Of a DNA stretch of 64,000 bases, positions 4,304 through 38,413 are shown piece by piece; position 1 is the first letter of the stretch, and every line of letters begins with the position of its first letter. Source of the stretch: Lautropia mirabilis (GTDB taxonomy: Bacteria > Pseudomonadota > Gammaproteobacteria > Burkholderiales > Burkholderiaceae_B). A model generated the notes under the pieces. The model worked only from the letters and a program-made list of their open reading frames with translations. It searched no databases and was not told the DNA's origin. Both the position numbers and the translations under genes were made by a program. Location: positions 1 through 64,000 of the forward strand of contig CAMCOS010000008.1 in NCBI GenBank assembly GCA_945876565.1, read 5' to 3'.

Positions 4304-4318
4304 CAACCTGCATCGACA

Positions 4319-4618: not shown

Positions 4619-5028
4619 TTGACCTCCTGAGACAACGCACCGGGCAATCTTTCCAGCACACCGTCAACACGCTGACGTGCCTGTTGGTTCACTTCCCGCA
4701 AGCGCCTAACCTCATCCTCGCGGCGCTTTAACGAAGTCTGCATGGTCTCATTCTCCTGCTTAAACAAGTCAAGCGTGCCTTGCAATGCAGCTTGATCCTG
4801 CTGCGCACGGACTTTGGAGTGCTGCATGGCCGACTGAACCGAGCCCAAAGACGCTTCAAGCTCAGTCTGACGAGCTATCTCAGCCTGAAGCTTTTTTGCG
4901 AGATCGTCGCGCTCGACCGTGATCGAGGCCAGCTGCTGCTTGAGCATAGCAGACTCAGACGCGAGCGACTTGACCCTCAGGACGAGGCCCTGTATTCGCT
5001 TAGCAAGGAGGTCTAATTCTTCAATCAT
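4615..5028 (-). CDS. ZapB-like coiled-coil protein
   Basis: A 137-residue protein that is almost entirely coiled coil: heptad-like Leu/Ala spacing from residue 1 to about 115, rich in Gln, Glu, Lys and Arg, with a short Pro/Gly-containing tail. The N-terminus MIEELDLLAKRIQGLVLRV resembles small ZapB-like proteins encoded next to zapA, so a role in organising ZapA-FtsZ at mid-cell is inferred from context. The start at 5028 is preferred over an in-frame start at 5130: the longer form would overlap the divergent gene at 5129, leave no promoter space, and add 34 residues unlike the coiled coil. Confidence 0.72.
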   Translation of the reverse strand: MIEELDLLAKRIQGLVLRVKSLASESAMLKQQLASITVERDDLAKKLQAEIARQTELEASLGSVQSAMQHSKVRAQQDQAALQGTLDLFKQENETMQTSLKRREDEVRRLREVNQQARQRVDGVLERLPGALSQEVN

Positions 5029-5128
5029 GTCGCCATCGTAAAACAAATCCTGCAACTCGTGAGATTTGTTTTTGTACACTTGTTCTTCATAACAATTCAA
5101 GACACCCCCATTTTTTGAGGAAGACATC

Positions 5129-6037
5129 ATGACAACATCCAGTATTCACCCTCGCGATTACGATAAGATTGACCCTCAAAAGGTCGCGTTTCTTGGACTC
5201 GGTGTCATGGGTCTGCCCATGGCAGGGCACCTCGCAAAGGCGGGTCACCACGTGACGGTTTACAACCGGACACAGGCGAAATCCAAAGCCTGGTCAGCGG
5301 AGTTTGGTGGCAAATATGCGACAACACCGCGCGAAGCCGCCGCGGGCGCGTCCATCGTATTCTGCTGTGTCGGTAATGATGACGATCTGCGCAGCGTTGT
5401 TCTTGGCGATGACGGTGCATTTGCTGGCATGACTAGTGGTAGTGTGTTTGTTGACCACACCACGGCATCAGCCAACGTGGCGCGTGAGCTCGCTGGCATT
5501 GCTAGCGGGCTAGGACTTGGATTTGTTGATGCGCCGGTATCCGGCGGACAAGCAGGTGCCGTTAACGGTGCCCTGACCGTCATGTGCGGCGCAGAATCCG
5601 ACACCTTCGACAAAATCAAACCTTTTGCCATGCACTACGCGAAAGCCGTGACATTGATCGGACAAGCCGGTGCTGGCCAACTTGCCAAGATGGTTAATCA
5701 AATCTGCATCGCAGGCTTGGTGCAAGGGTTGTCCGAAGGCATCGCATTTGGCCAGGCAGCCGGCTTAGACATGAAGCTTGTTCTGGATGTGATTAACAAA
5801 GGCGCTGCTCAAAGCTGGCAAATGGACAATCGTGGCTACACCATGGTCGACGATAAGTTTGACTTTGGCTTTGCGGTCGACTGGATGAGAAAAGATTTGA
5901 GCTTGGTCACAGACGAAGCACGCCGAAACGGCGCGCGCGTCCCAGTGACTGCGTTGGTCGACCAGTTCTATGCTGACATACAGAAGCTAGGTGGCAATCG
6001 CTGGGATACCTCAAGCCTGATCAAGCGATTGCGCTAA
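5129..6037 (+). CDS. NAD(P)-dependent beta-hydroxyacid dehydrogenase (3-hydroxyisobutyrate/tartronate semialdehyde family)
   Basis: A 302-residue enzyme of the 3-hydroxyisobutyrate dehydrogenase family. The N-terminal Rossmann motif [20 protein letters not shown] (about residues 20-39) is followed by NRT, where cofactor specificity is set. [14 protein letters not shown] near residue 132 is the substrate-binding signature, and the catalytic Lys lies in [13 protein letters not shown] near residue 185. Candidate substrates are tartronate semialdehyde, 3-hydroxyisobutyrate or succinic semialdehyde; sequence alone does not decide. A good ribosome-binding site (GAGGAAG) lies 5 bp before the ATG. 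The gene diverges from the ZapB-like gene, and its 3' end overlaps that of rppH by 27 bp in convergent orientation. Confidence 0.88.
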
Positions 6038-6559
6038 TTCAATGTCGCCTGAACGTCGTGCCCGATCCCCGGCACGACTGACGCGAGCCCGAAACAACAA
6101 AGGCGACAGCTCATGCAAGGCCTGATGGTAGACGCCGCGCTTAAACTCAATCACTGATTCGAGCGAAACCCAATAATGGCACCAGCGCCAAGCGTCAAAC
6201 TCAGGGTGAGATGTGGCTCGCAAACTAACATCGCAATCGCGCCCAACCAGACGCAGAAGAAACCAGATTTGTTTTTGTCCACGATAGTGACCGCGGGATT
6301 CGCGCCGCATGAAGTGATCGGGCACGTCATATCGGAGCCAGTCACGTGTGCGCCCTAAGATACGCACATGCTCAGGCTTTAGCCCAACTTCTTCGTGCAA
6401 CTCACGAAACATTGCCTGCACGGGACTTTCACCGTGCTTAATACCACCCTGCGGAAACTGCCAAGCATGCTCCCTGACCCGCTTGCCCCAGAAGACCTGA
6501 TTTTTCTGGTTGACCAGGATAATGCCGACATTGGGGCGGTAACCCTCCCTATCCAGCAT
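6011..6559 (-). CDS. rppH: RNA pyrophosphohydrolase (Nudix)
   Basis: RppH removes pyrophosphate from triphosphorylated mRNA 5' ends, triggering RNase E decay. The protein opens with [17 protein letters not shown], the classic RppH N-terminus, and has the Nudix box within [20 protein letters not shown], extending to VGL (about residues 38-60). Length is 182 residues from ATG 6559. A TTG at 6580 could add seven residues, but it lies within about 10 bp of the predicted transcription start and is less likely. It diverges from proS, a frequent neighbour in betaproteobacteria. The 3' end overlaps the convergent dehydrogenase gene. Confidence 0.95.
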
Positions 6560-6570
6560 CGCCGCACCCG

Positions 6571-6606
6571 TTGAATTCAATACAATTGACCTAGATTATA
6601 CGAACT
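6571..6606. promoter_or_regulatory. Putative divergent rppH/proS promoter region
   Basis: On the plus strand TTGAAT (6571-6576) and GATTAT (6594-6599) are separated by 17 bp and could drive proS. On the minus strand the same AT-rich stretch reads TATAAT (6595-6600), a perfect -10 for rppH, although no convincing -35 is visible for it. Both assignments are inferred from motif match only. Confidence 0.4.
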
Positions 6607-6644
6607 GATTTCCGATTCACCCTAATAAATTACCCCTAGACCCC

Positions 6645-8399
6645 ATGCGAGCCTCTGCCTTTCATATCAGCACCATCAAAGAAGCGCCTAATGACGCGGA
6701 AGTTGCCAGCCACCAACTCATGATCCGCGCCGGCATGATTCGCAGACTAGCCGGGGGCATATACAACTACATGCCGCTTGGTCTGCGAACCATCCGCAAG
6801 ATTGAGAACATCATCAGAGCAGAGATGAATGCAGCGGGCGCACTCGAACTGCTAATGCCAGTTGTTCAGCCAGCCGAGCTCTGGCAAGAATCCGGTCGCT
6901 GGGAGAAATATGGTCCCGAACTGCTGCGCATGAAAGATCGTCATGGTCGTGACTTCATTTTGCAGCCCACCTCAGAAGAGGTGATCACGGATATCGCCCG
7001 CAATGAGATCAAGAGTTGGCGCCAGCTACCAGTGAACTTCTATCACATCCAGACCAAATTTCGTGATGAGCGGCGGCCTAGGTTCGGGATCATGCGGGGT
7101 CGCGAGTTCACCATGAAAGATGCCTATTCCTTCGATCGAGACGTTGATGGCGCAATGCGCAGTTATGAGGCGATGTTCGAGGCTTATCAGAAAATCTTCA
7201 AGCGACTTGGATTGGACTTCCGTGCCGTTGCTGCTGACACGGGTTCCATTGGAGGGTCGTCAAGCCACGAATTTCAGGTGATTGCCGACATCGGCGAAGA
7301 CTCGATTGTCTATGACCCCAGCACGGATTACGCCGCCAACATAGAGTTGGCAGCGGCACCCTGCCTAGTCGCAACACGCGCCTCGGCTAGCCAGACCATG
7401 CAAAAGGTGCACACGCCCAACGCGGCGACCTGTGAAGAGGTGAAAACCCTTCTGGGGATTGATTTGACTCACACCGTCAAATCCATTGTGCTGGCCACTG
7501 AACCCGCAGACGCCCCCCCGAAGATTTGGCTTTTGCTATTGCGCGGTGACCATGACCTAAATGAGATCAAGGTTGGCAAGCTAGCTGGCTTTGAAGATGG
7601 CTTCAGATTTGCCACTGAACAAGAGATCAAAGAACACTTCGGTTCACCACCGGGTTACCTTGGTCCGGTCGGCTTAGACGCGCGCGTCAGCATCATTGCG
7701 GACTTGACCGTGGCCAACATGAGCGATTTCGTCTGCGGTGCCAACGAAGCACCCTACCACCTGCGGGGCGTGAACTGGGCAAGGGATTTGCCTGAGCCAG
7801 CGCTTGTCGCTGACATTCGAAATGTGGTCGCAGGCGATCCTGCCCCGGATGGCAAAGGTGTACTGAACATACAGCGCGGCATCGAAGTCGGGCATGTGTT
7901 CTATTTGGGTACAAAATATTCCGAGGCACTGAAAGCTACCTATCTTGACGAAACTGGCAAACCGGCACTAATGGAAATGGGCTGTTATGGCATCGGCGTG
8001 ACCCGCATTGTCGGCGCGGCGATCGAACAAAACCACGACGAGCGCGGCATTATCTGGCCTCGGGCGATGGCACCATTCGAAGTGGTTGTATGCGGGCTAG
8101 GCTGGGGTAAAAGTGAATCCGTACGACAGGCAGCCACTGAACTGTACGGTCAGCTAAAGGCGGCTGGCTATGATGTCATTCTGGATGACCGTGACCTGCG
8201 TCCTGGCGTGATGTTTGCTGAATGGGAGCTAATCGGTATTCCGGTTCGGATTACGGTTGGGGACCGCGGTTTGACCAATGGGCAAGCCGAAGTACTCGGA
8301 CGTCGAGAAACAACTACAGAGTTGGTCGACATAAGCGATGTCGTCACTCGTGTGGCCGCCAAACTCAACCTTCAATCACATGATCATCCCCATCGCTGA
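6645..8399 (+). CDS. proS: Prolyl-tRNA synthetase
   Basis: ProRS charges tRNA-Pro. The 584-residue length and layout are those of the bacterial (prokaryote-type) enzyme: class II motif 1 around [15 protein letters not shown] (residues 30-44), motif 2 around [18 protein letters not shown] (about 138-155), then an inserted Ala-tRNA-Pro editing domain (roughly 225-400, including a [10 protein letters not shown] segment), motif 3 [13 protein letters not shown] near 446-458, and a C-terminal anticodon-binding domain with ILDDRD and [14 protein letters not shown]. It diverges from rppH, and the thioesterase gene ybgC begins inside its last 20 bp. Confidence 0.98.
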
Positions 8400-22093: not shown

Positions 22094-22587
22094 TGGTCCT
22101 GATCGTCGTCTTCGGTGTCGGGCAACTCAGGCTCAAGTGCGACCATTAGATTAGCCATCTCAACGGCAGCCTGCGCGCAATCACGCCCCTTACCAGCCGC
22201 GCGCGCATGGGCTTGGTCCTCATCCTCGGTCGTCAACACGCCGTTGATCACCGGCACACCCATTTCCAGGGAGACCCGCGAGATCGCAGCAGCACTCTCA
22301 TTGCTGACCAATTCGAAATGATAGGTTTCACCTCGAATCACTGCGCCCAGCGCAACTAATGCGTCAAACTCGCCCGTCTGAGCCATTTGGGCCAATGTGA
22401 TACCCAACTCAAGCGCACCAGGCACAGACACCACCATGATGTCTCTTTCGTCAACGCCGAGGGCCGCGAGTTCGCCCAGACAAGCATCAAGCTCGGCCAA
22501 GCCGATTTCTTCGTTAAAACGGGCACGCACGATACCAATGTGCAGGCCTTCGCCATTAAGGTCGGGGGAAATGGTGTAGGGGCTCAT
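22090..22587 (-). CDS. ribH: 6,7-dimethyl-8-ribityllumazine synthase
   Basis: RibH joins 5-amino-6-ribitylaminouracil with dihydroxybutanone phosphate, the penultimate riboflavin step. The 165-residue protein contains [27 protein letters not shown] (about 55-67), [18 protein letters not shown] (about 82-99), with the catalytic His in the ETYHFE segment, and [16 protein letters not shown] near 114-129. It sits between ribBA and nusB, overlapping both by 4 bp (ATGA). No ribD or ribE is next to it. Confidence 0.96.
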
Positions 22588-23780
22588 TTGGTTTCCTGTG
22601 CAGTTAATCTGTCTGATGGTTGCTCATCGTAACCGGTAACGGTCAGTCCAAAGCCAGCCATCATACTTGGCATCTTTCTCGGGCGCGCGAGCAAGCGCAT
22701 TTTACCGACACCCAAATCACGCAATATTTGGGCCCCCAAGCCATACGTGCGCAGGTCCATGCTCCGATTGGCACGCGCCGCCTGATCATGCGCCACATCC
22801 GTCTGAACCAGCCGGCTCGCTTGCTCCAGCACATCATTGGCAGTGGCGTTGACATTGAGCAACACCACCACCGCGTCTGGCGCGGCCGCAATCGCCTTCA
22901 TCGCCTCATCAAACCCCCAGGAGTGCCCAGAGCCCTGCGCATTGAGCAAATCGATCACCGTGGTCGGCTCATGCACACGGACCAAGACCTCGTTTTCAGG
23001 TGAGATGTGGCCTTTTGAAAGGGCGATATGAGGGCGTCCCTCAACCGTATCGCGGTATACCGTCATGCTGAAGGGGCCCCAGGGGGTATTGATATCCTTT
23101 TGCGCGACGCGCTCAACCACTGACTCGTGTTCACTGCGATATTGAATCAGGTCTGCGATGGTGCCAATCTTAAGCTCATGGACTTTGCAGTACTCGATCA
23201 AATCAGGCAAACGAGCCATCGTGCCGTCTGGCTTGAGGATTTCGCAGATCACCGCTGCCGGGGTCAATCCAGCCAAAGCAGTCAGATCGCATCCGGCTTC
23301 GGTATGCCCCGCACGCACCAGCACGCCCCCGGGGACGGCGCGCACGGGAAAAATATGCCCCGGCTGCACCAGATCTTGCGGCTTTGCCTCTTTAGAAACC
23401 GCGGTGCGAATGGTGTGTGCACGATCAGCAACTGAGATACCCGTATGCACGCCTTGGGCTGCCTCAATGGAGACGGTAAAGTTGGTGCCATAGGCTGCGC
23501 CGTTGCTGTCAGCCATCAAGGGTAGGTTTAACTGTCGGCAACGGTCTTCGGTCAAAGTCAGGCAAACCAGGCCACGTGCATGGGTGACCATGAAATTGAT
23601 GGCTTCAGGTGTCACAAACTCCGCGGCCATGACTAAATCACCCTCGTTCTCACGGTCTTCCTCATCGACCAACACCACCATCTTGCCGGCGCGGATGTCA
23701 TCGATGATCTCACTGATTGGTGAAATGGCAGCGGATAGCGAGTCATCACTCGGCGTGGCCACTTGCAATGCGGCTGACAT
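22584..23780 (-). CDS. ribB: 3,4-dihydroxy-2-butanone-4-phosphate synthase with degenerate GTP cyclohydrolase II domain
   Basis: A RibBA-length protein of 398 residues. The N-terminal half (about 20-225) is a complete Rib[19 protein letters not shown] carries the acidic Mg site, [10 protein letters not shown] and [12 protein letters not shown] hold the active-site His/Glu. The C-terminal half aligns in position with GTP cyclohydrolase II but has lost the three zinc cysteines and the QEGRGIG loop. Where these should be it reads [20 protein letters not shown], then [12 protein letters not shown], and only the later [18 protein letters not shown] is recognisable. It is therefore expected to make only the 4-carbon precursor. 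A protein with the opposite defect lies at 37265-38413. First gene of the riboflavin operon; no FMN riboswitch was seen upstream. Confidence 0.92.
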
Positions 23781-27974: not shown

Positions 27975-28358
27975 CTAAAACGCAGGCATGGACGCATCGG
28001 GGTGGATTTTGACTAGTCGGCAGGGTTTTCCAACGACGTTGCTAAACCAGGCCGCGGCCAAGTCACCCTCATCGACCACCTTGACGACTTGCTTGCCCAC
28101 CTGCGCCTGACGGCAAACACTGTCATCGTCCTCAATGACATCCATGGGCAGATCGAGTCGCAACATACCTGGCGCACGCAGAACCATGTTGCCAAAACTG
28201 ATGCTGATCTGCACGGCTGAGAGCTTGCGCGTCAATTGATCCGGGTGCCAGACAAAATTTTCATCCACCAGAAACCAGCGCATCTCAAACCGAGCTGCAT
28301 CTTCGTGGCTAAGCACTGGACAGCCGACGATCAATTCAAATCCGGATAGTGTATTCAT
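27975..28358 (-). CDS. Stand-alone MOSC N-terminal beta-barrel protein (short)
   Basis: A 127-residue protein that resembles only the middle of the N-terminal beta-barrel domain of YcbX-type MOSC proteins: FEMRWFLVDENFVWHP (about 24-39), VLRAPGMLRLDLP (about 58-70) and DEGDLAAAWFSNVVGKPCRLV (quoted in part: AAAWFSNVVGKPCRLVK, about 100-116). The usual opening PIKSC segment and the entire C-terminal MOSC catalytic domain are missing; normal proteins exceed 260 residues. It may be a reduced stand-alone version or a decayed gene. It is the last gene in the leftward run from 33.8 kb, 39 bp after the AsmA-like gene. Confidence 0.6.
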   Translation of the reverse strand: MNTLSGFELIVGCPVLSHEDAARFEMRWFLVDENFVWHPDQLTRKLSAVQISISFGNMVLRAPGMLRLDLPMDVIEDDDSVCRQAQVGKQVVKVVDEGDLAAAWFSNVVGKPCRLVKIHPDASMPAF

Positions 28359-28397
28359 CAACGAGCCAACTTACGGTCAATAAAAAGCGTCACGACT

Positions 28398-29375
28398 TTA
28401 ACGTCGCTGATTTAGCCACTGTACACCAGGGCTGTTCCATGTCCCGCTCAGCTCAAACTGCATTTGTGACTGACGCACGTTGATCTCCAATGCACGACTC
28501 CTGAATTTGGGTGCGTTGGTCAAATTGGCACGCATCGGAATCGCCATCTGTCCTGTTTCAAGCTCAATGGTTCCATCCGAGGCCAGCAATGCGCCCCAAG
28601 CACCAGTGGCCTCAAATGCAATCAAGCGCAGCAAGTCTCGGCTTTCAAGTTGCCACTGACTGTCCATCGCCATCACATCCCAAGTGCCGTTACTCGCGAT
28701 ACCAAGCTGCTCCAGCAAAGCGGGTGTGTGCCCGAACGCGTCAGCATCATTGACTAACAATTGTCTAATCCGTACGCTAGCCTGGCTGTTAGCGAACTTG
28801 GGCCAACTGGCATCAGCCATGATCTCTAGCTGCTTGATTGTGGCTAGCGGCAACTGCTGCGCGTCGCCATCGGTGCTGAACACCGCGATGTCTTCGACCA
28901 AGGCTTGCCTGACAATGACACGCCACGTTTCACCCACCCTCTGCTGGCGACCAAACCAATCAAACCACTGACCGGCATTAAACAATGGTGCCTGGCTAAC
29001 TTCGGACATAAAAAGCCCTCGAGTCGGACCCGAACGAAATACGTCAACACCTTGTATGTAAAGACTCTCGAGTGAGAGCGTGCGATCAAACAGTGGCTGC
29101 CACGCAGCTTGCCACTGCACTCGCCTGATGGAAACGGCCGGGTGAGTGCCCGCCTGATTGGCAATCGTGATGTCCCGCAGATCAAGACCAAGGCGTGGCA
29201 GAACGGTAATCCCCACCTCCCCATTGACTTGCAAGGCTGGATGCACCCACGCTCGCAGACGATTCTCTACCAACGACCCACCCATCGACGTTTGCAGCAA
29301 GATGACCAGCGCTGCAATCAGCAGAAAAAACAGGCTAAGGGAGATGAGTGCGATACGCGCAAAAGTTTTGAACAT
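28398..29375 (-). CDS. AsmA-like membrane-anchored periplasmic protein
   Basis: A 325-residue protein with an N-terminal membrane anchor (about residues 8-30: FARIALISLSLFFLLIAAL) and a long beta-rich periplasmic part, beginning with NRLRAWVHPALQVNGEVGI. ITVLPRLGLDLRDITIANQ (about 56-74) is the AsmA-family hallmark. AsmA proteins are implicated in phospholipid transport or outer-membrane assembly. It is shorter than E. coli AsmA (617), covering mainly the N-terminal half. Start 29375 is chosen because the preceding 30 in-frame residues overlap the methyltransferase gene. It follows that gene by 8 bp, suggesting a shared operon with the glucan-type export genes. Confidence 0.72.
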   Translation of the reverse strand: MFKTFARIALISLSLFFLLIAALVILLQTSMGGSLVENRLRAWVHPALQVNGEVGITVLPRLGLDLRDITIANQAGTHPAVSIRRVQWQAAWQPLFDRTLSLESLYIQGVDVFRSGPTRGLFMSEVSQAPLFNAGQWFDWFGRQQRVGETWRVIVRQALVEDIAVFSTDGDAQQLPLATIKQLEIMADASWPKFANSQASVRIRQLLVNDADAFGHTPALLEQLGIASNGTWDVMAMDSQWQLESRDLLRLIAFEATGAWGALLASDGTIELETGQMAIPMRANLTNAPKFRSRALEINVRQSQMQFELSGTWNSPGVQWLNQRR

Positions 29376-29383
29376 ACAAAACT

Positions 29384-30241
29384 TTAACGCAATCCGGACC
29401 TGCTGGCATAAAGATCGTCGTGCCCTATGATGCAGCGCAAAGCGGATCGATGAGAGTGCAACCAAGCGTGCACCTGCTGCGCTGGCAAACGGTCAGTCTC
29501 CAGGACAGCCTGTGCGATGCCATCAATCAGCATGTCATAAAAGGCTGACGGCAACTGATCCACTACCCAAGGGCTTTTATCCATCGTGACATCCAAGCCA
29601 TGGCTGCGCAAGGCTTGGCTCAAATACTGCCCAGAGTTTGGACCAAGAGCGGACCCGAAACCTTTGTCAGTGGCTTGGTGAGCAGCGAAAGCCAACACCA
29701 CGTCGCCATCCAGCGGATGTTCGGGTGCCCAGGACATCTGACCATCAAAACTCAAGACTGCATACAGCGGCACAGACAAAGCTTGGCAAAACCGATCTAC
29801 CCAGTCAGATGAGACCAAATCAAACAAGGCCGATGCCGTCACCAGATCGGCTGGCACTGCCAGCACAGCCTGAACGTCATGCACCAAGTCCGCCACGCGA
29901 AATTGAACTTGGACTTGAGACCCACCGTACACCACGCACAAAGAGTGGGCTTGTTCAGACACCACCTCATCGGCCCAAGCTTTAATGGCCTGCCGCGCAG
30001 CCGCCAGCAGTGAGAGGTCGTAATCCACCAGCGTCCAATACTGCTGGTCACCCAACAAAGGCGCAATCGCGCGCAAGTTCGAACCAGAGCCACATCCTAA
30101 ATCGAGCAATCGCAATCCGGTCAATTCATGACCATGACGGGCACGCAGATCATCCAGCATCGCATCCTGCACACGCATGCTACGTGACGCATGATCCACC
30201 GGCTCTCGCAGGCTTAGCCATTGCGCTGAAAACTCACCCAT
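29384..30241 (-). CDS. SAM-dependent methyltransferase (class I, unknown substrate)
   Basis: A 285-residue class I methyltransferase. LRLLDLGCGSGSNLRAIAPL (about residues 43-62) is motif I of the SAM fold, VDYD follows at the acidic loop, and VTASALFDLVSSDWVDRF (about 132-149) corresponds to the motif IV region. The protein matches no named methyltransferase I can recognise. The start at 30241 is supported by CAGGAG seven bases upstream and overlaps the ABC exporter stop by 8 bp. Position between an exporter and an AsmA-like gene, and next to a pterin/flavin-type gene set, suggests that it methylates the product of this locus; that is inference. Confidence 0.8.
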   Translation of the reverse strand: MGEFSAQWLSLREPVDHASRSMRVQDAMLDDLRARHGHELTGLRLLDLGCGSGSNLRAIAPLLGDQQYWTLVDYDLSLLAAARQAIKAWADEVVSEQAHSLCVVYGGSQVQVQFRVADLVHDVQAVLAVPADLVTASALFDLVSSDWVDRFCQALSVPLYAVLSFDGQMSWAPEHPLDGDVVLAFAAHQATDKGFGSALGPNSGQYLSQALRSHGLDVTMDKSPWVVDQLPSAFYDMLIDGIAQAVLETDRLPAQQVHAWLHSHRSALRCIIGHDDLYASRSGLR

Positions 30242-32012
30242 CAATTTTCTCCTGGCGATCAAACTGAGTCTGCACCATCTGAGCAAACAAACCGCGTTTG
30301 CTTAGCAACTCATCAAAGCTGCCCATCTCCACAATCCGGCCCTCGTCCATGTACACGATCTGATCGGCGTGACGAATCGTTGAGAGCCGGTGGGCAATCA
30401 CCAGCGTTGTACGACCTTCACGCACACGTTGCATAGCCTGCTGCACGGCAAACTCAGTTTGAGCATCAAGCGCACTGGTTGCCTCATCAAGCACCAAAAT
30501 AGCAGGGTCTTTCAATAGCACCCGGGCGATCGCTAAACGCTGACGCTGGCCTCCGGATAAGAACCGACCGCGCTCACCAACCTGACTGGCAAATCCCAGC
30601 GGCGATGCTTCAATGAAATCCAATGCACAAGCATCGCGGGCGGCCAAGCGCAACTGCTCTGGTGTCGCATCCGGTTTACCAATGCGCAAGTTATCTTCCA
30701 CGCTGCGATTAAAGAGCAAGTTTTCCTGAAACACGACACCAATGTTGCGGCGCAAAGCATCGAGCTTGAGATGGCGAATGTCGCAGCCATCAATCAAAAT
30801 CTCGCCCGCCAAGGGATCAAACAATCGGCACAGTAACGCCAAGGTCGTCGATTTGCCCGCACCCGATGGGCCGACAAAGGCAATGGTTTGGCCGGTTTGC
30901 ACGTTAAGGTTGAAGTCAGTGAGTGCCGCAGCAGACGCGCCCGGGTAGGTGTAATCCACGCGCTTAAACTGAATCGAACCATGAAATCGGCCAGGGTCAC
31001 TTGCCCCATCGATCTCACTGACCTGCGGCTCAGTTTGCAGCACCTCAAAAAATTCACGCAGCTTTGGTGCTTCAACAGAGAGCCGATTGGCAAAGCTGAC
31101 AGACTGATCAAGCCGGCCAATGATTAGCCCCGCAAAACCAATAAAGGTCACTATTTCACCGATGGAAATTCGTTGCTCGCTAAACAGCCAAAGCCCTAGA
31201 CTCAGCATGGCCAGCACAGTCAAGGTCGTGGCTGATCGCGTCAGGATATTGACAAGCGCCCACCATGACAAAGCCGGAAACTGAGCACCGATCACTTGAT
31301 GACTCAAATACTTGAGTCTGTCGACTTCATCTCTGACGCGCGCAAAACTCTGGATCAAGGCAACATTGCCAAGACTGTCTGCAACGTGCTCAGCCATATC
31401 GGAATAATGGCCTTCGACCGATTGCTGCAGGCGATCGGTTTTTCGCAAAATCAAACGAGTCAAAAACACAAAGAGCAAGCAAAGCAGTAACAACAGGCTT
31501 GCCATGATTGCATTCAAGTAAAACGCCACTGGCATGAGCACAACCACCGCCACAAAAGCCGCAAAGTAGTCTCGAAAGAATCCAAGCCACAACGCCCAGA
31601 GGGCATCTGTGCCCTGCAGCATGATTTTCATGAGACGGCCAGAATGTTGGGTGTGCCGATGATGCGCAGGCAACTGCAACACGTGCTCGAAGTAATCCCG
31701 TAAAACCACATGGCGACGATGATGGGCTAGGCGATCTGCATACAGTGCAATCAATGCCGCACAAACAATCGCAAACAATCCAAACGCAACCCAAATCAGT
31801 AACAAGGGTGTCACAGCTGACCAAATGTTTTGATCCGCATGGCCCGCAGAATTGCTTAATTGAGTCAGGGCATCAATGACCCTGCCAAACAGAATCGGCT
31901 CGGCAAGCAATGCCCCAACCAGCAAAAAATTAGCCAGCATTAACCAATAGGCCGTAAGCTTATCTTGCCCCAAGAGGGCAAAGACACGGCGGTATAAAGC
32001 CAAAAAACCCAT
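30234..32012 (-). CDS. ABC exporter of the NdvA/ChvA (beta-glucan) type, fused permease-ATPase
   Basis: A 592-residue half-transporter. Six membrane helices occupy about residues 15-310, opening with ALYRRVFALLGQDKL and EPILFGRVIDALT, which resemble cyclic beta-glucan exporters NdvA/ChvA. The ATPase domain follows: VGPSGAGKSTTLALLCRLFD (Walker A, about 375), GRFLSGGQRQRLAIARVLL (ABC signature, about 480), LVLDEATSALD (Walker B). It would function as a homodimer exporting a glycosylated compound across the inner membrane. It starts 3 bp after the glucosyltransferase gene and overlaps the methyltransferase gene, so synthesis and export appear coupled. The substrate need not be a polymeric glucan. 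Confidence 0.85.
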   Translation of the reverse strand: MGFLALYRRVFALLGQDKLTAYWLMLANFLLVGALLAEPILFGRVIDALTQLSNSAGHADQNIWSAVTPLLLIWVAFGLFAIVCAALIALYADRLAHHRRHVVLRDYFEHVLQLPAHHRHTQHSGRLMKIMLQGTDALWALWLGFFRDYFAAFVAVVVLMPVAFYLNAIMASLLLLLCLLFVFLTRLILRKTDRLQQSVEGHYSDMAEHVADSLGNVALIQSFARVRDEVDRLKYLSHQVIGAQFPALSWWALVNILTRSATTLTVLAMLSLGLWLFSEQRISIGEIVTFIGFAGLIIGRLDQSVSFANRLSVEAPKLREFFEVLQTEPQVSEIDGASDPGRFHGSIQFKRVDYTYPGASAAALTDFNLNVQTGQTIAFVGPSGAGKSTTLALLCRLFDPLAGEILIDGCDIRHLKLDALRRNIGVVFQENLLFNRSVEDNLRIGKPDATPEQLRLAARDACALDFIEASPLGFASQVGERGRFLSGGQRQRLAIARVLLKDPAILVLDEATSALDAQTEFAVQQAMQRVREGRTTLVIAHRLSTIRHADQIVYMDEGRIVEMGSFDELLSKRGLFAQMVQTQFDRQEKIDG

Positions 32013-32015
32013 GGG

Positions 32016-33779
32016 CTATTGGCCGCTCTCAAGCGATGTGCCTGAAGACACGGACGCATCGCTTTTGCCTAGTGATTGAGCAGTCAAGTGACTCAAAAAA
32101 CCGTCTCCAATGAATTCTTGTGGAATGCCCGCCAATCGCCAGCGGGTGAGAACCTGTCCAAGCGCTGGCCAAGACGTCAGGACAGCGACCGGCACGCAAA
32201 CCCACAGGCCGCCAATGAAGTAAGCAATCCACCAAGTGGCCGGTTCATGCCAATCTATCCAAAGCCAGCCCAGCAACAGGCCAATGGCGGTGTGCAAACC
32301 AAAGGCTCGCAGAGCCAACTGCCAAGAGATCTGTTGCTCATCACGGTTTTGAGCCGTCCACGTTATTCGTTTGCCGAACGGCAATCCAATAAGCAACACC
32401 GTCTGCGAGACCCACAAGACTGGGGTGATCAGCAATGAGAACACTGACTCCACCACAAAGCCACACAGGAACCGAACGCCACCACCAAACGAGCGACGAG
32501 CTTGAGCGCGCAACAACACCGACAAACCGGCGGCAAGCTTGGGCAACATTGCCATGGTGATCACCACCCAAAGCAAGGTCGCCAAGGCCGGCACATCGAA
32601 AACCTCCCGCAGCGAAGATTGGTGTACTGACCATCCAAGCGTGCCCAGTAAAACAAACCAGGCTGGCGCTCCAACGAACATCAACATGGCCAGCACCAGT
32701 TGCACGCGGCTGGTCACCTTCAAGCCTGGCAGCGTCAAGAGCCGCCAGTACTGCATATTGCCGGCACACCAACGCAAGTCTCTGGCCACGAAGTCCATGA
32801 GGTTGGGTGGGTTTTCCTCAAAACTTTCATCTTCAAACGGATAGACCCGAACCTCGAAACCCGCGCGACGCATCAACACGGCCTCGACCTGATCGTGACT
32901 CAAAATATGAGTCTGTTTGCCCTTGCGATCAACAAAGACCGGCAATTGGCAATCACGAATGAAGGGCACTAAACGCAGAACTGCGTTATGGCCCCAGTAA
33001 GGACCACAATCGCCTTGCCACCAAGCGCTGCCCAGTGTGTAAGAACGCATACCCAGCCTCATCCCGAACTGGAACAAGCGGGTGAACGCGCTTGTGGCTG
33101 GCATGCCAACCACCAAGCCTTGCAAAATGCCTAGCTGCGGATTTGCCTGCATGGTCAGCACGAGCCGGCGCACCGCGCGCCCACTCATCAAACTGTCTGC
33201 ATCCAACACCAGAGCGAACTCATGGTTGGCTCCCCAACGCTCACAAAAGTCCTGAATGTTGCCAGCCTTAAAGCCACGATTGTCAGTACGACGGCGGTAG
33301 GTGAGCGTCAAACCGGATTGCCATTCTTGGGCAAGCTGTTCAAAGGCGACGACCTCTTGCTCAGCGATTTGAGGATCAGTCGTGTCGCTCAACACATAGA
33401 CATGAAACTGGCTCGCGTCTTTGCCCGCCATCAGGCCACGTGCCAAGGCGTCTAGATTGCGAACCAGGCGCGCAGGCATCTCATTTCGAATGCACAGCAG
33501 CAGTGCTGTAGAAGACCGAACCTCTGCATCAAGATCCACGCCAACGGCCAGCGGGTTGGTACTTCTCAATGGATCCGCTGAAAAAATATCGAGCAAAAAT
33601 CCGATCGCGGCGTTACCGAACCCAACCGCAAGCCATGGCATCACAACAACAAAAGCCACCATCGCCACCACATCGAGCAGCGACCAGCCACCCGGCGCAA
33701 GCGCAAGCGCCATCAACCAGGCTGATCCCACAACAGACGAGGCGACCAGCAACACAAACAAGACACGGCGTCGCGTCAT
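32016..33779 (-). CDS. OpgH/MdoH-type membrane glucosyltransferase (GT2)
   Basis: A 587-residue integral GT2 enzyme. Two helices near the N-terminus (about 5-65) precede the catalytic domain with NRGFKAGNIQDF (about 168), LDADSLMSGRAVRRL (about 192), GHNAVLR, LSHDQVEAVLMRRAG (about 294) and RDLRWCAGNMQYWRL (QxxRW-type, about 335). A block of helices fills the C-terminus (about 355-560). These motifs match OpgH, which uses UDP-glucose to build periplasmic beta-1,2 glucan. It lacks the long cytoplasmic N-terminal region of E. coli OpgH and no opgG partner is nearby. First gene of a leftward operon with the NdvA-like exporter, behind a GGAAGAAC ribosome-binding site. Confidence 0.87.
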   Translation of the reverse strand: MTRRRVLFVLLVASSVVGSAWLMALALAPGGWSLLDVVAMVAFVVVMPWLAVGFGNAAIGFLLDIFSADPLRSTNPLAVGVDLDAEVRSSTALLLCIRNEMPARLVRNLDALARGLMAGKDASQFHVYVLSDTTDPQIAEQEVVAFEQLAQEWQSGLTLTYRRRTDNRGFKAGNIQDFCERWGANHEFALVLDADSLMSGRAVRRLVLTMQANPQLGILQGLVVGMPATSAFTRLFQFGMRLGMRSYTLGSAWWQGDCGPYWGHNAVLRLVPFIRDCQLPVFVDRKGKQTHILSHDQVEAVLMRRAGFEVRVYPFEDESFEENPPNLMDFVARDLRWCAGNMQYWRLLTLPGLKVTSRVQLVLAMLMFVGAPAWFVLLGTLGWSVHQSSLREVFDVPALATLLWVVITMAMLPKLAAGLSVLLRAQARRSFGGGVRFLCGFVVESVFSLLITPVLWVSQTVLLIGLPFGKRITWTAQNRDEQQISWQLALRAFGLHTAIGLLLGWLWIDWHEPATWWIAYFIGGLWVCVPVAVLTSWPALGQVLTRWRLAGIPQEFIGDGFLSHLTAQSLGKSDASVSSGTSLESGQ

Positions 33780-33899
33780 GTGAGTTCTTCCAAAAATAAA
33801 GGATCACGGAAAGGAGAGATGGGGTCTGATCGGTAAAAAGATTTTCACCGCACCCCGGCATCGCCAGTCCGCTAACGCTGGCGTCTGCCCTACAATTCA

Positions 33900-33924
33900 G
33901 TTGCATATACTAGTATAGGGCAAC
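33900..33924. promoter_or_regulatory. 25-bp dyad in the divergent intergenic region (candidate operator)
   Basis: Between the glucosyltransferase and dehydrogenase genes, the perfect palindrome TATACTAGTATA (33906-33917) is flanked by GTTGC on the left and GCAAC on the right, forming a near-perfect 25-bp dyad. Each half contains TATACT, a -10-like sequence, on both strands. No convincing -35 box was found, so the site may be a repressor or activator operator rather than a plain promoter. The cognate regulator is not in the window. Confidence 0.55.
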
Positions 33925-33975
33925 GTCACCTGTCAGTGATGCACAATTTTAACGTTTTCCTACGGGATTTTTACT

Positions 33976-34968
33976 TTGGCTGCCACCACCCGCCCGCCTG
34001 AGCAACCGCTTGCACTTTGGTACGTTGGTCCCAAAATTGTTCAGATTGGGCCAGTCGATCTTTCTGCGCTGGCCCAGGATCATTGCCGGATCCAAACGAT
34101 TTTCAGTGCCATTAGTCGTGGTACTGAATCCCTGGTTTTCGAGGCAAGCGTGCCCCCGAGCGAATACGGTCGCATGGCAACCCCCCTGATGGCAGGCATA
34201 TTTCCGTTTCCGGTCACCTATGGCTACTGCAACGTGGGCCGAGTCATCGACGGCCCGGCTCACTGGCTAAACAAAACGGTTTTTTGTCTGGCACCCCATC
34301 AAACCGTGTTTGATGCACCCGCTCAGATGCTCGCCGAAGTGCCCGCAAACGTCACCGCGCAACGGGCAACGCTGGCCGCCAACATGGAAACCGCTTTAAA
34401 CGCCGTCTGGACTGGCAAACCGGGGCCTGCGGACCATGTAGCCATCGTCGGTGGCGGTGTGGTCGGCTTACTGGTGGCCTATCTATGCAGCCAGTTACCC
34501 GGGGCAAAAGTCACTTTGGTCGACCCATCGCAATCACGAGCTCATCCCTGCAAAACGCTGGGCATTCAATATGCTCAGGATGCGCATGGTCTTGGCAACT
34601 GCGATGTGGTGTTTCATGCCAGCGGCCATCCCGCTGGCTTACAAACTGCTTTGTCCATTGCTGGCAATGAAGCAACCGTTATCGAGCTGAGCTGGTATGG
34701 CAGTCGTGCGGTCAGCGTTGAGCTTGGCGGTGTCTTCCATAGCCAACAGCTTAGGCTGCAGTCCTGTCAGGTCGGCCATATTGAGCAAACCCATCTCGCA
34801 CGCTGGAGCTACAATCGCCGGCTGCACTCGGCGCTGGATTTGCTGGCCGATCCGAGACTAGACTGCCTGCTCGAGCCAGCAGTGAACTTCAAATCACTGC
34901 CTGAAGAAATACCCAAGATTTTCGGCCAGACGCAGCCGCGCCTTTGCCAATTGATTGACTACGCTTAA
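33976..34968 (+). CDS. MDR/zinc-dehydrogenase-like oxidoreductase (BchC-like)
   Basis: A 330-residue medium-chain dehydrogenase. The catalytic half includes FSAISRGTESLVFEA (about 41-55) and FPVTYGYCNVGRVIDGP (about 73-89), an arrangement seen in bacteriochlorophyllide dehydrogenase-like MDR proteins. The nucleotide-binding half has VAIVGGGVVGLLVAYLCSQL (about 155-174). The Cys/His pattern of the structural-zinc lobe is absent. NAD(P)-dependent oxidation or reduction of an alcohol is likely; substrate unknown. The start is TTG at 33976, since no in-frame ATG precedes the conserved region, so the N-terminus is uncertain. It is the first of three rightward genes, 9 bp before the PTPS-like gene. 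Confidence 0.78.
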   Translation: MAATTRPPEQPLALWYVGPKIVQIGPVDLSALAQDHCRIQTIFSAISRGTESLVFEASVPPSEYGRMATPLMAGIFPFPVTYGYCNVGRVIDGPAHWLNKTVFCLAPHQTVFDAPAQMLAEVPANVTAQRATLAANMETALNAVWTGKPGPADHVAIVGGGVVGLLVAYLCSQLPGAKVTLVDPSQSRAHPCKTLGIQYAQDAHGLGNCDVVFHASGHPAGLQTALSIAGNEATVIELSWYGSRAVSVELGGVFHSQQLRLQSCQVGHIEQTHLARWSYNRRLHSALDLLADPRLDCLLEPAVNFKSLPEEIPKIFGQTQPRLCQLIDYA

Positions 34969-34977
34969 GGAACCACC

Positions 34978-35379
34978 ATGTACGCTGTTGAAGTTCGCGA
35001 CCACATCATGATTGCTCACTCGTTTAAAGGCGAAGTATTTGGCCCAGCCCAGAAACTGCACGGCGCCACTTTTGTGATCGATGCTGCTATCTATGCTGAA
35101 ACCCTCGACGAGAACGCCATTGTGATTGACATCGGCCGGGCGCATGAGGTCCTTAAATCCCTGTTAGTGCCGCTGAACTATAAAAACCTTGATGAAGAGC
35201 CCGCTTTCAAGGGCCAGAACACGACCACCGAATTCTTGACCAAGTATTTATTTGATGGACTGGCCAAAGCAGCGCGCGCAGGTGAGCTTGGTCGTGAAGG
35301 CCAGCAGTTGCATTCCATTCGAATCGAAATTGCCGAATCGCATGTTGCCCGCGCCTCCTACGAAGCACGATTGTGGTGA
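34978..35379 (+). CDS. PTPS/QueD-fold protein with altered active site
   Basis: A 133-residue T-fold protein of the 6-pyruvoyl-tetrahydropterin synthase/QueD family: IAHSFKGEVFGPAQKLHGAT at the N-terminus, IDIGRAHEVLKSLLVPLNYKN (core IGRAHEVLKSLLVPLNY, about 46-62) and NTTTEFLTKYLF (about 81-92) match in order. Several catalytic positions differ from E. coli QueD. The HGH zinc pair reads HGA, the catalytic Cys four residues before it is Ala, and the Asp-His of the LDHHYLN segment reads LNYKNLD. The C-terminal Glu (AES) remains. It probably does not do standard QueD or PTPS chemistry. It is followed immediately by the GT4 gene (GTGA overlap). Confidence 0.82.
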   Translation: MYAVEVRDHIMIAHSFKGEVFGPAQKLHGATFVIDAAIYAETLDENAIVIDIGRAHEVLKSLLVPLNYKNLDEEPAFKGQNTTTEFLTKYLFDGLAKAARAGELGREGQQLHSIRIEIAESHVARASYEARLW

Positions 35380-36452
35380 GCCAATTAACGCTGGCCTATC
35401 CCGGTGATTTAGACACGCTCACCGGAGGCTACCTCTATGACAAGCGCATACTGGCTGAGCTAGAAGCGCTTGGGTGGGCTACCCACAAACTCAGTCTTGA
35501 TCCCCGTTTCCCCAACGTCAACGAGCAAATCAAACAAAGCACATGCCAACGCCTGGCGAACGTTGACCCAAGCCATATGCTTGTGATCGACGGCCTGGCA
35601 TTGGGCGCCTTGGGACTCTGCGCCAAAGCCATCCGAGCAAAGCGACCCTTTGTCGCCCTGGTACATCACCCCTTGGCGCTTGAGTCTGGCATTCCAGCTG
35701 ACTTAGCCCGCCAGCTACATCAAAGCGAGCAAGCGGCATTGACTTATGCAGACCACATCATCGTCACGAGTCAAATAACGGGGCAAACACTGATCGAGCA
35801 ATTCGATGTGCCGACACTGAAAATCAGTGTCGTTGAGCCTGGCGTTGACCGCCCAGATCATGTTTTATCGACGCCGCTCACACACAGACTGCCCCAGCAC
35901 CCCGTCAGATTGCTCTCGGTTGGCGCGCTGGTTGCACGCAAAGGGTTTGATATCTTGATCAAGGCGCTTGGCACCCTTGCCGACATTGACTGGCAGCTCA
36001 CCATTGTTGGTGATCAAGAACGCTCACCTGCTTGCACCAGTGAGATCAACCAATTGATCAGACACTTCAACATCACTCCCAAAGTGAAGCTGGCTGGGGC
36101 ACTTCCAGCCCACCTGCTCGCTCAGCACTACGAGCAGGCCGATCTCTTTGTGCTGGCCTCACGGTACGAGGGTTACGGCATGGCATACAGCGAAGCGTTG
36201 GCTTGGGGGCTGCCTGTCGTTGGCACAGACGGTGGTGCAGCGGCACAGACGCTGGCGACACCAGCTGCGAAAATCGTGCCGGTAGACGATACCGACACAT
36301 TGGCAGCAACGCTTAGAACGCTCATTTCAGACCATGATCTGCGCCAAACGATGCGTCAAGCAGCGTTAGATCATGCGCAACAATTGCCAAGCTGGCAGGG
36401 GTCAGGTCTAAAATTTGCGCAGGCTATCTCAGCAAAAAGCACACTCGATTAA
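35373..36452 (+). CDS. Glycosyltransferase family 4 protein
   Basis: A 359-residue GT-B glycosyltransferase. The N-terminal acceptor domain begins TLAYPGDLDTLTGGYLYDKR, with the Gly-rich loop after the first strand. The C-terminal donor domain has VRLLSVGALVARKGFDILIKAL (core SVGALVARKGFDILIKAL, about 190-207), then EGYGMAYSEALAWGLPVVGTD (EX7E motif core YGMAYSEALAWGLPVVGTD, about 267-285) that binds nucleotide sugar. The start is GTG at 35373 or 35376; both overlap the PTPS-like stop. The acceptor is unknown; gene order suggests that it glycosylates the product of the preceding dehydrogenase and PTPS-like proteins. Its 3' end overlaps the convergent RibD-like gene by 24 bp. Confidence 0.85.
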   Translation: MVSQLTLAYPGDLDTLTGGYLYDKRILAELEALGWATHKLSLDPRFPNVNEQIKQSTCQRLANVDPSHMLVIDGLALGALGLCAKAIRAKRPFVALVHHPLALESGIPADLARQLHQSEQAALTYADHIIVTSQITGQTLIEQFDVPTLKISVVEPGVDRPDHVLSTPLTHRLPQHPVRLLSVGALVARKGFDILIKALGTLADIDWQLTIVGDQERSPACTSEINQLIRHFNITPKVKLAGALPAHLLAQHYEQADLFVLASRYEGYGMAYSEALAWGLPVVGTDGGAAAQTLATPAAKIVPVDDTDTLAATLRTLISDHDLRQTMRQAALDHAQQLPSWQGSGLKFAQAISAKSTLD

Positions 36453-37121
36453 CACATCCTGGCCCAAGCCATAGGAGCTCGCTTTGAAGCGCCGCGCGTT
36501 GACCAAACGGTCCAAACCGGGCGCCCGCACGCCGGCAATCCCAGGGCCAAGTAGCAAGGGCGATGTGATCAGGTGCAGGTAGTCCAGTGCACCCGCCCCT
36601 AAAAACCGGGTCAAAGTGTTGGCACCACCCTCTACCAAAACTCGGCGCCATCCCTGTCTGGCCATCCATTGCCGAAATTGATGCATGTCAGTTTGACCGT
36701 TCTGGGCAAAACCCTCAAACGCGAGCTGCTCGACCCCAGGCGGCCAGGCCACGCCCTTTGCCCCGGTTGTCGTCAATACAATCCGGCGTACTGATTGGTC
36801 CGCCAGACAAACGGCATCGACGGGTGAACGGGCTGATGGGTCAATGACCAAACGGGCTGGGCTGGTGCCTGGCACCAACCGAACATTAAGCTTGGGATTA
36901 TCGGCAAGCAATGTTCCCACGCCAATGACGACAACATCTGCCCACGCCCGAAGCTGATGCAAATGAACCAATCCCCCTTGGCCGTTGATGTATTTCGACT
37001 GACCTGTGGCCGTGGCAATCTGACCGTCAAGCGACTGACCTAGCTGCCCAACCAGTGTCAAACCGTCCAAGCTCGGCGTTAGCTGACTAGCAGTCCAAAT
37101 CATCGTTTCTAGAGTTTTCAT
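36429..37121 (-). CDS. RibD C-terminal-type pyrimidine reductase (stand-alone)
   Basis: A 230-residue protein matching only the reductase domain of RibD (dihydrofolate-reductase-like fold): VGQLGQSLDGQIATATGQSK (about 24-43, with the SLDG substrate segment), GVGTLLADNPKLNVR (about 67-81) and VLVEGGANTLTRFLGAGALD (about 160-179). The zinc deaminase domain of bacterial RibD is absent. Stand-alone reductases of this type (Rib7-like) reduce the ribosyl side chain of the GTP cyclohydrolase II product without prior deamination. It diverges from the GTP cyclohydrolase II gene across 143 bp. The start at 37121 is preferred to an upstream one at 37142 that adds seven residues. Confidence 0.82.
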   Translation of the reverse strand: MKTLETMIWTASQLTPSLDGLTLVGQLGQSLDGQIATATGQSKYINGQGGLVHLHQLRAWADVVVIGVGTLLADNPKLNVRLVPGTSPARLVIDPSARSPVDAVCLADQSVRRIVLTTTGAKGVAWPPGVEQLAFEGFAQNGQTDMHQFRQWMARQGWRRVLVEGGANTLTRFLGAGALDYLHLITSPLLLGPGIAGVRAPGLDRLVNARRFKASSYGLGQDVLIECAFC

Positions 37122-37264
37122 TGCAACAAAACCACAATACAACCAAAATCAAGGGTGTGCAGTAAGCCCAATATGTTGAGGCTCGGCTACACTATCGCAC
37201 GAAATGTTTGCATTAAACCGCAAGCATGGTCTTCTGTCTAACCTGATCCTGTGAAACGTATTAA

Positions 37265-38413
37265 ATGAATTCACCCCTTGCGAGTATGGGTCCCGTTTTG
37301 GGGATCCCTAGTGCCTTGTCCAAAGTAGATCGCGCTGTGCACGAGTTGCGCCGAGGAGACACTCTGGTGATTCAAAGCCAGTCTGGCCGACACGCCATCA
37401 TCGCAGCTGAAGCGGTGACACAGCAAATCCTCGATAGCCTTCAAGTAGATGTAGCCACCGACTGGCGCTTGGTGCTTGCCGGGCAACGAGCTGTGCGTGT
37501 CGGGTTCGAGGTAGATGCGCAAGACTCTGTGTATCAGTTGAAACCAACACAGCCAGTTGATGCCAAGACGCTACACCAATTGGTTGATCCAACGTTTGCA
37601 TTACAGCCGTCCGATCGAGATCACACCAGCAACTGGAGAATAGACGCGGGCGATCACATCGATGGCGCTGCAGTACTTCTGCATAAACACGCTGGTCTGC
37701 TGCCGGCCTGTATCATCGTGACGCTTGGTGATAGCCAAATTACGGACACGGTGTGCATTACCGAAGCCGATATCCGCGCCGGTATCTCAGAGCAGCGCGA
37801 ATCGCTGCACGTTGTGAGCCGCGCGCAAGTACCCCTAGAGGACGCCGAAGATGTGCAAATTGTTGCATTTCGGCCACAAGATGGTGGCACCGAACATCTG
37901 GCCATCATCGTTGGTAAGCCGGACTTGAATCAACCAGTGCTCATTCGTCTGCATTCCGAATGCTTCACCGGTGACCTGTTAGGGTCGTTGCGCTGCGATT
38001 GCGGCAGCCAGCTGCGCGGTGCAATTTCCTTGATGGGTTCCACACACGGCGGGATTCTGCTGTACCTTGCGCAAGAAGGTCGCGGCATTGGACTTATCAA
38101 TAAGCTGCGTGCCTACCAACTGCAAGACGCTGGTCTCGATACGGTCGACGCCAACTTTGATCTTGGGTTTGAGGAGGATGAGCGCGACTACATGCCAGCC
38201 GTGCAAATGCTCAAACACCTGAATGTCCGGCAAGTACGTGTACTGACCAACAACCCCCGCAAAGTCAATGCGCTAAGTCGCTTGGGTGTGAACGTGGTTG
38301 AGCGTGTCGCCCATGTGTTTCCAGCCAATCGTCATAATCGCGGCTATCTGATGACAAAGGGTAGTCGTGGTGGTCATTTGTTTGACATGGCAGAGTTTGA
38401 TCAAGAAGGCTGA
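37265..38413 (+). CDS. ribA: GTP cyclohydrolase II with degenerate N-terminal RibB-like domain
   Basis: RibA converts GTP to 2,5-diamino-6-ribosylamino-pyrimidinone phosphate, the first riboflavin step. The C-terminal half (about 185-380) is complete: HSECFTGDLLGSLRCDCGSQ provides the three zinc Cys, LAQEGRGIGLINKLRAYQLQ the active-site loop, and LTNNPRKVNALSRLGV the substrate end. The N-terminal half (about 12-180) has RibB-like length and order but lacks the acidic DEEDRE site and HTEA motif, so it should be inactive. The 382 residues mirror the RibBA at 22584-23780, which is dead in the other half. Diverges from the RibD-like reductase gene; the start lacks an obvious ribosome-binding site. 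Confidence 0.92.
   Translation: MNSPLASMGPVLGIPSALSKVDRAVHELRRGDTLVIQSQSGRHAIIAAEAVTQQILDSLQVDVATDWRLVLAGQRAVRVGFEVDAQDSVYQLKPTQPVDAKTLHQLVDPTFALQPSDRDHTSNWRIDAGDHIDGAAVLLHKHAGLLPACIIVTLGDSQITDTVCITEADIRAGISEQRESLHVVSRAQVPLEDAEDVQIVAFRPQDGGTEHLAIIVGKPDLNQPVLIRLHSECFTGDLLGSLRCDCGSQLRGAISLMGSTHGGILLYLAQEGRGIGLINKLRAYQLQDAGLDTVDANFDLGFEEDERDYMPAVQMLKHLNVRQVRVLTNNPRKVNALSRLGVNVVERVAHVFPANRHNRGYLMTKGSRGGHLFDMAEFDQEG

Follow-up and report, generated by a model that had tools for sequence, protein, structure and literature searches.

In the archaeal and fungal order of riboflavin synthesis, reduction precedes deamination, and in toxoflavin-type pathways early riboflavin intermediates are diverted and methylated. 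GTP-derived glycosides are also known: the pterin glycosides of cyanobacteria and Chlorobium, for which a pteridine glycosyltransferase has been named, are covered by two PubMed Central (PMC) papers (PMC5683033 and PMC13259868). In the passage cited from the second of these, a review of 2026, the route of a pterin-like compound across the membrane is listed as unknown. The gene cluster considered here lies in a 64-kb stretch of contig CAMCOS010000008.1 of Lautropia mirabilis (hereafter the window), the source genome comprising 2.8 Mb in 89 contigs. It combines genes for an MDR-family dehydrogenase, a PTPS/T-fold protein, a GT4 glycosyltransferase and a class I S-adenosylmethionine (SAM) methyltransferase with genes for a stand-alone RibD_C reductase, a long-form GTP cyclohydrolase II (RibA) and an OpgH-type membrane GT2 glucosyltransferase. 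It was found that the core of this gene set is kept across bacterial classes, that its PTPS-like protein has an altered active site and that the core carries two nearly exclusive envelope modules.

Conservation of the core genes

The PTPS-like gene (34978..35379, + strand), which encodes a protein of the type of SCO6650 (PDB 3d7j), was used as the search anchor. It was present in all nine searched genomes of the genus, and G035 was the one further carrier among 32 other genomes searched in the family and order. Across the order it was found in 11/399 genomes and in a draw of Pseudomonadota in 27/398, the own genome being included in both counts. When a draw of equal size was searched in reverse with a profile of the MDR gene (33976..34968, + strand), the identical 27 of 398 genomes were recovered, with the two genes adjacent in each; the weakest main match scored 352 bits versus 147 bits for the next-best place. 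The order of the core genes was kept in eight genomes of the same genus as far as their contigs extend, and genus genomes with sufficiently long contigs carried the MDR, PTPS-like, GT4, RibD_C, RibA, OpgH, NdvA and methyltransferase genes together. In G035, which belongs to another family, the OpgH, RibD_C, MDR, PTPS-like, GT4 and methyltransferase genes lie on one strand in a rearranged order (locus L019).

Gene content was then counted in 113 loci (L011-L019, L056-L155 and L160-L163), a set that includes contig-cut loci and duplicates such as L014/L076, L016/L077, L017/L078 and L056/L130. Loci were taken from 20 of the 26 non-own genomes with a PTPS-like match in the draw, and five of 20 plasmid records were examined. 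The PTPS-like gene is common, with 589 confirmed stretches in public genome contigs; the 80 best of these were kept, a selection that favours close relatives. The counts were taken from tables of hidden Markov model (HMM) profiles built from those same loci, as simple gene calling gave the PTPS gene in only 89/109 loci. In the 20 draw loci, the MDR gene was present in 20, GT4 in 19, the methyltransferase in 18, RibD_C in 16 and RibA in nine; as for envelope and accessory genes, OpgH was found in eight, the CDP-alcohol transferase and YbhN in seven each, and cytochrome b561 and FkbM in six each. Dereplication of the full-length loci at 85% PTPS identity left 65, which contained MDR (63), GT4 (62), methyltransferase (62), RibD_C (47), OpgH (39) and RibA (32) genes, followed by b561 (25), FkbM (23), CDP-alcohol transferase (18), creatininase (14), sulfatase-type (12), YbhN (11) and NdvA (6) genes. 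In these loci the MDR gene lies a median of 0.7 kb before the PTPS-like gene and GT4 a median of 0.7 kb after it, on the same strand in 63/63 and 62/62 cases, respectively.

The core, in part or as a whole, was also found in records of Streptomyces, Amycolatopsis, Acidobacteria and Gemmatimonadetes. Annotated examples are plasmids pOB3b1 of Methylosinus trichosporium OB3b, pAt of Agrobacterium tumefaciens Yub001, p1 of Streptomyces fungicidicus and pTs417 of Candidatus Thiodictyon syntrophicum. Among environmental laboratory strains, the cluster is carried by Xanthobacter autotrophicus (L110) and Roseibium aggregatum (L095) as well as by M. trichosporium OB3b (L160). Because the same 27/398 genomes carry both the MDR and the PTPS-like gene and because of the counts in the draw loci, chance neighbourhood can be rejected, and it is strongly supported that the core genes belong together, their grouping being far beyond chance. 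The original prediction of one linked gene set has thus held: co-occurrence in other genomes was not rare, and it was not only the two glucan genes that travelled together. Since the set is kept across Pseudomonadota and in records of Actinomycetota, Acidobacteria and Gemmatimonadetes, its product is probably useful.

Two side observations concern individual loci. At G624:C1:3776773-3777739 the MDR match is in two pieces with one internal stop, alongside an intact PTPS-like gene. Loci L104, L105, L107, L113 and L118, from Beijerinckiaceae and related bacteria, lie near open reading frames (ORFs) resembling sigma factors and stress regulators (names assigned by eye), and a link of such loci to stress is possible.

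Enzymes of the core

The PTPS-like protein has the PTPS fold (PF01242, 71 bits versus a gathering cut-off of 22.4) and did not reach the cut-off of the NCBIfam QueD model (34.3 versus 89.25 bits). At the position of the catalytic Cys, four residues before HGH, Ala was found in 112 of the 113 loci and Gly in one, and HGA replaces HGH in 113/113 (112 by pattern; L147 was read by eye for both positions). Assignment as an ordinary QueD was therefore rejected, and the label '6-carboxytetrahydropterin synthase', which most annotated plasmid copies of the gene bear, is contradicted by the same loss of Cys and of the HGH motif. E120 of the protein aligns with the Glu of the other PTPS domains of the genome, which we take to be the anchor of the ring; a looser pattern of the Glu region fits 96/113 loci. 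Of the expectation that this protein acts on pterins, the fold has stood, while HGH has lost a His and the catalytic Cys is gone, and a pterin role is a guess based on the fold. The match to SCO6650 is full-length (E 1.3e-59) and takes in the signature GPAQxLHGATF. In the part of PMC5041015 cited here, PTPS-I to IV are sorted by motifs and the HGA type is not mentioned.

The genome has another PTPS protein, one of whose two PTPS domains keeps C and HGH. It is encoded in a queuosine-type locus (221-2893 of L165, on contig C60 of the window's genome), flanked by a queC-like and a queE-like gene (names by eye); in its 400 aa, PF01242 matches twice and a further HGHG motif lies near the N-terminus.

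RibA of the window (37265..38413, + strand) has an intact HSECFTGDLLGSLRCDCG, with the C..CDC Cys residues that we take to be the zinc ligands, and an intact KLRAYQLQ, whose Tyr is presumably the active-site residue of cyclohydrolase II. The N-terminal half aligns colinearly with RibBA and, as read from the alignment, has no DRENEGD motif. The Cys ligands are kept in 49/49 loci with RibA (some of them duplicates) and the Tyr in 46/49, Leu being found in L126 and Met in two Amycolatopsis loci, both of which also carry a creatininase-family gene. From work on S. coelicolor, we take Met to be the mark of an enzyme forming the formamidopyrimidine (FAPy). A rule that creatininase implies a Met-type RibA was considered and rejected, the Tyr being kept in 10 of the 12 loci having both genes.

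The other PF00925 protein of the genome is the housekeeping RibBA (22584..23780, − strand), outside the module. Its cyclohydrolase half is devoid of the Cys ligands, and it is presumably RibBX-like. The gene adjoins ribH-like and nusB-like genes (names by eye). Two PF00925 matches were found in each of nine genus genomes, and in several other genera a RibBA-like match is paired with a match in a short frame.

The RibD_C reductase (36429..37142, − strand) matched the RibD_C domain only; its TIGR00326 match begins at model position 145, and no N-terminal deaminase domain, as expected for a bifunctional RibD, was found in it with Pfam or NCBIfam. The best solved match was 2,5-diamino-6-ribosylamino-pyrimidinone 5'-phosphate reductase. 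The other RibD_C copy of the genome is part of a 417-aa frame of contig C4 that presumably encodes a full RibD.

In the MDR protein, YGYC stands where zinc alcohol dehydrogenases have GHE, presumably their catalytic-zinc motif; YGY was invariant in an alignment of 20 rows. The methyltransferase gene (29384..30286, − strand; likely start ~30241) is found elsewhere on the PTPS strand, 3' of GT4, in 58/62 dereplicated loci. An AlphaFold model of the methyltransferase, with a predicted local distance difference test score (pLDDT) of 92.6, has a class I fold, and a fold search returned class I matches and no hint of the substrate. GT4 (35373..36452, + strand) was present in 109/113 loci.

Envelope modules and neighbouring genes

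To count the modules, an OpgH of at least 600 bits was taken as cluster-type, which gave 69 of the 113 loci (duplicates included). None of these 69 loci contained a CDP-alcohol transferase, YbhN or sulfatase-type gene, and 18 contained c24, described below, and 17 NdvA. In the other 44 loci, the CDP-alcohol transferase was found in 23, YbhN in 16 and the sulfatase-type gene in 12, and c24 and NdvA in none. Among the dereplicated loci, the CDP-alcohol transferase was present in 0/38 with versus 18/27 without cluster-type OpgH (Fisher 9e-10, in a test that ignores the relatedness of loci, which are not independent). Thus the core carries two nearly exclusive envelope modules; the split is partly explained by descent, as the modules differ between lineages. 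Among the 44 loci, at least L099, L102 and L114 have OpgH fragments only, and the rest include contig-cut loci.

OpgH-like proteins were found in 114/398 genomes. Scores of at least 711 bits occurred in 11 genomes, all of which have the PTPS-like gene (adjacent in nine); the remaining scores did not exceed 525 bits, and six genomes have both kinds as judged by score. A branch with 100/100 support separated 23 cluster-type rows from the ten others in a tree of 33 rows. The window OpgH (32016..33779, − strand; 916.6 bits, hence cluster type) had L011 and L015, from the same genus, as its representatives in this tree. A scan of eight ORFs lying close to OpgH copies showed five to be MdoG, each directly 5' of an OpgH of the canonical side. 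No MdoG/OpgG (PF04349) match was obtained in the genome of the window, and the profile matched E. coli as a control (1/14 control genomes). The assignment of this gene to the OpgH family in the original prediction was thus confirmed, with the qualification that it belongs to a clade apart from the OpgG-linked OpgH, in a genome without MdoG.

As a side observation, a cluster-type OpgH lies beside a match to FkbM methyltransferase at 4241-7098 of locus L178 (contig C36 of G776), apart from the PTPS core of that genome; this OpgH/FkbM envelope pair may work alone.

The ABC exporter gene (30234..32012, − strand) exceeded the cut-off of NF010178 (766.5 versus 733 bits) and stayed below that of TIGR01192, chvA (550.7 versus 585.4). 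An NdvA-type exporter, which had been predicted as part of the pathway, is indeed present here; with only 17/113 loci, it is an accessory of the OpgH-type module.

The c24 family consists of secreted-looking proteins encoded near OpgH in 18 loci. It was found in 5/289 genomes, with the cluster in four (G000, G428, G509 and G601) and not in G597; in the window's genome it is on a separate contig (L168), and in L019 an ORF between the OpgH and RibD_C genes represents it, lipoprotein-like as judged by eye. Foldseek gave no structural match at E <= 0.001, and neither a Pfam family nor a PDB sequence match at E <= 1 was obtained. Only a second structural aligner placed a model of the L142 protein (pLDDT 80.7) with OpgD of E. 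coli (Z 12.7, 215 aligned residues, root-mean-square deviation 4.0), the next row having Z 6.4. With caution, this model suggests that c24 is a diverged OpgG/OpgD-like partner.

All nine genes of the original prediction were found as ORFs in their places and on their strands, with families assigned from Pfam and NCBIfam profile matches. The spacing of the leftward genes, with gaps of 3 and 8 bp and one overlap of 8 bp, follows from the coordinates if internal starts, picked by eye, are taken for the methyltransferase (~30241) and AsmA (~29375). The AsmA-like gene (28398..29465, − strand) and a MOSC_N-domain gene (27975..28361, − strand) were rejected as module members: among nine relatives' loci, they were matched in three and six, respectively, all of the same genus, so that the AsmA-like gene, listed with the set in the original prediction, falls outside it. 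The MOSC_N-type protein has 128 aa and 24 bits versus a Pfam cut-off of 25; its gene is kept beside the cluster in the genus.

Proposed pathway and its relation to known systems

The evidence leans towards the core genes forming one pathway from GTP to a methylated, glycosylated heterocycle delivered to the envelope. We infer its substrates, the order of its middle steps, its product and the use of the product as follows. RibA would open GTP to 2,5-diamino-6-ribosylamino-4(3H)-pyrimidinone 5'-phosphate; in some lineages a formylated intermediate would arise and be deformylated by the creatininase-family protein, and a protein of this family is required for riboflavin in some bacteria according to the cited part of PMC9478397. 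The stand-alone RibD reductase would convert the ribosyl to a ribityl group, after which either side-chain remodelling or closure of a pterin-like ring could be the work of the MDR protein and the altered PTPS-fold protein. Decoration of the heterocycle in the cytoplasm would fall to the methyltransferase and GT4, and the glycoside would be passed to one of two interchangeable envelope modules. In the first, the dedicated OpgH-type glucosyltransferase would extend and/or translocate it, joined in some lineages by the NdvA-type exporter or c24; the second would use the CDP-alcohol phosphatidyltransferase, to which a YbhN flippase and the sulfatase-type protein are often added. As to the product, the tentative proposal is a glycoconjugate of a GTP-derived pyrimidine or pterin that would act outside the cytoplasm, perhaps as a redox cofactor or mediator served by cytochrome b561, and would be either extended and exported by the OpgH-type glucan machine or anchored to lipid by the CDP-alcohol transferase and flippase.

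Several observations weigh against this reading. The PTPS-like gene of a Streptomyces anthocyanicus plasmid (L164, which like L180 lies outside the 113-locus set) has no partner genes annotated nearby. RibA was found in the locus in only 51/113 and RibD_C in 78/113 cases, some loci being contig-cut, and the actinobacterial L136, L152 and L162 have no linked RibD_C. The database matches of the methyltransferase and GT4 were generic, and since the known catalytic residues are gone, it is only the conserved Glu and the fold that would point to a pterin role of the PTPS-like protein. No PF00925 protein of the window's genome other than the long RibA has an intact Cys motif, and judging from this, RibA may serve riboflavin synthesis there too; that it would be needed for riboflavin as the sole cyclohydrolase is only possible, because among 41 genomes 17 have a single PF00925 match, mostly with a weaker, RibBA-like score, and one has none. 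The cluster-type OpgH is on a separate contig in G679 and G776. Finally, a 522-bit OpgH lies near a CDP-alcohol transferase gene in the gammaproteobacterial L063, and a 618-bit OpgH lies beside one in L180, which would count as both modules under the 600-bit rule. Because both of these OpgH proteins group with the canonical ones, the two modules separate cleanly only where the OpgH is of the cluster-type clade.

At 1896-13061 of L180, from a gammaproteobacterium (G768), opgG and opgH were observed beside the creatininase, RibD_C, methyltransferase, GT4, MDR and CDP-alcohol transferase genes. With such a pair beside the core, a link to glucan may have evolved on more than one occasion.

It could be supposed that the cluster makes a modified periplasmic glucan or glycolipid, with the PTPS-fold, MDR and RibD-like proteins recruited to sugar chemistry and no heterocycle in the product. 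The membrane GT2 clade, the OpgD-like secreted partner confined to OpgH-type loci and the opgG-opgH pair directly beside the core in L180 are in keeping with this. However, a RibA with the cyclohydrolase II Cys residues kept in 49/49 and the Tyr in 46/49 loci would be superfluous for a glucan, as would the creatininase-family partner of the Met-type RibA in Amycolatopsis, and 44/113 loci have no full cluster-type OpgH (some of them contig-cut or with fragments). This explanation is considered rather unlikely.

Somewhat less probable still is an oversupply of flavin or lumazine, in which RibA and RibD_C would raise the level of riboflavin precursors and the other genes would make a secreted flavin or lumazine glycoside serving as an electron shuttle. 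RibA and RibD_C of the cluster would fit such a product, as would cytochrome b561, found in 36/113 loci, but no RibD deaminase, lumazine synthase or riboflavin synthase was among the identified recurrent neighbour families (some families are unassigned), and the RibH-like gene (by eye) stands with RibBA elsewhere in the genome.

That unrelated glucan and flavin modules are merely neighbours is very improbable: the AsmA, MOSC and NdvA genes do vary across lineages, but for the core this is refuted by the identical 27 genomes for MDR and PTPS-like genes, the cross-class gene order and the cluster-specific OpgH clade. Equally improbable is an ordinary QueD or PTPS serving a branch towards queuosine/preQ0 or tetrahydrobiopterin, to which the PF01242 domain and most record labels would point, but which is at odds with the missing Cys, the HGA motif, the QueD score and the separate PTPS-domain protein between the queC-like and queE-like genes.

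Returning to the proposed GTP-derived glycoconjugate, should the product be a heterocycle glycoside that is externalised, the cluster would provide a membrane-crossing route for a pterin-like compound. The two-module split makes its chemistry testable through comparison of lineages. A search of open-licence PMC papers found no description of this gene combination, which is not proof that the cluster is unpublished.

Among known systems, the nearest found for the PTPS-like protein is SCO6650 of Streptomyces coelicolor, of the same PTPS-fold family, whose PDB entry is named 'Uncharacterized protein SCO6650' with no function given; SCO6655, near it, is presumably a FAPy-forming cyclohydrolase. 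The cluster has in common with the archaeal and fungal entry into riboflavin synthesis the families of the cyclohydrolase, the creatininase-type FAPy deformylase and the RibD-like reductase. It differs in that PTPS-like, MDR, GT4 and methyltransferase genes are added and that no deaminase or lumazine synthase is among the identified families. Methylation of a diverted early riboflavin intermediate, as proposed here, would resemble toxoflavin-type pathways, in which we know of no PTPS-like, MDR or glycosyltransferase genes. As in the OpgGH glucan system, there is an OpgH-type membrane GT2, and in some lineages c24 may be an OpgD-like partner; in contrast to that system, the cluster OpgH forms a separate clade, in a genome without MdoG. 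Likeness to the NdvA/ChvA glucan exporter extends to NF010178 and not to the chvA model, and to the minority of loci that carry the exporter. Likened by description, the pterin glycosides of cyanobacteria and Chlorobium correspond to a cluster with a GT4 enzyme and a PTPS protein devoid of the catalytic motif, and PruA/PruR/DcpA pterin signalling offers a precedent for the periplasmic use of reduced pterins.

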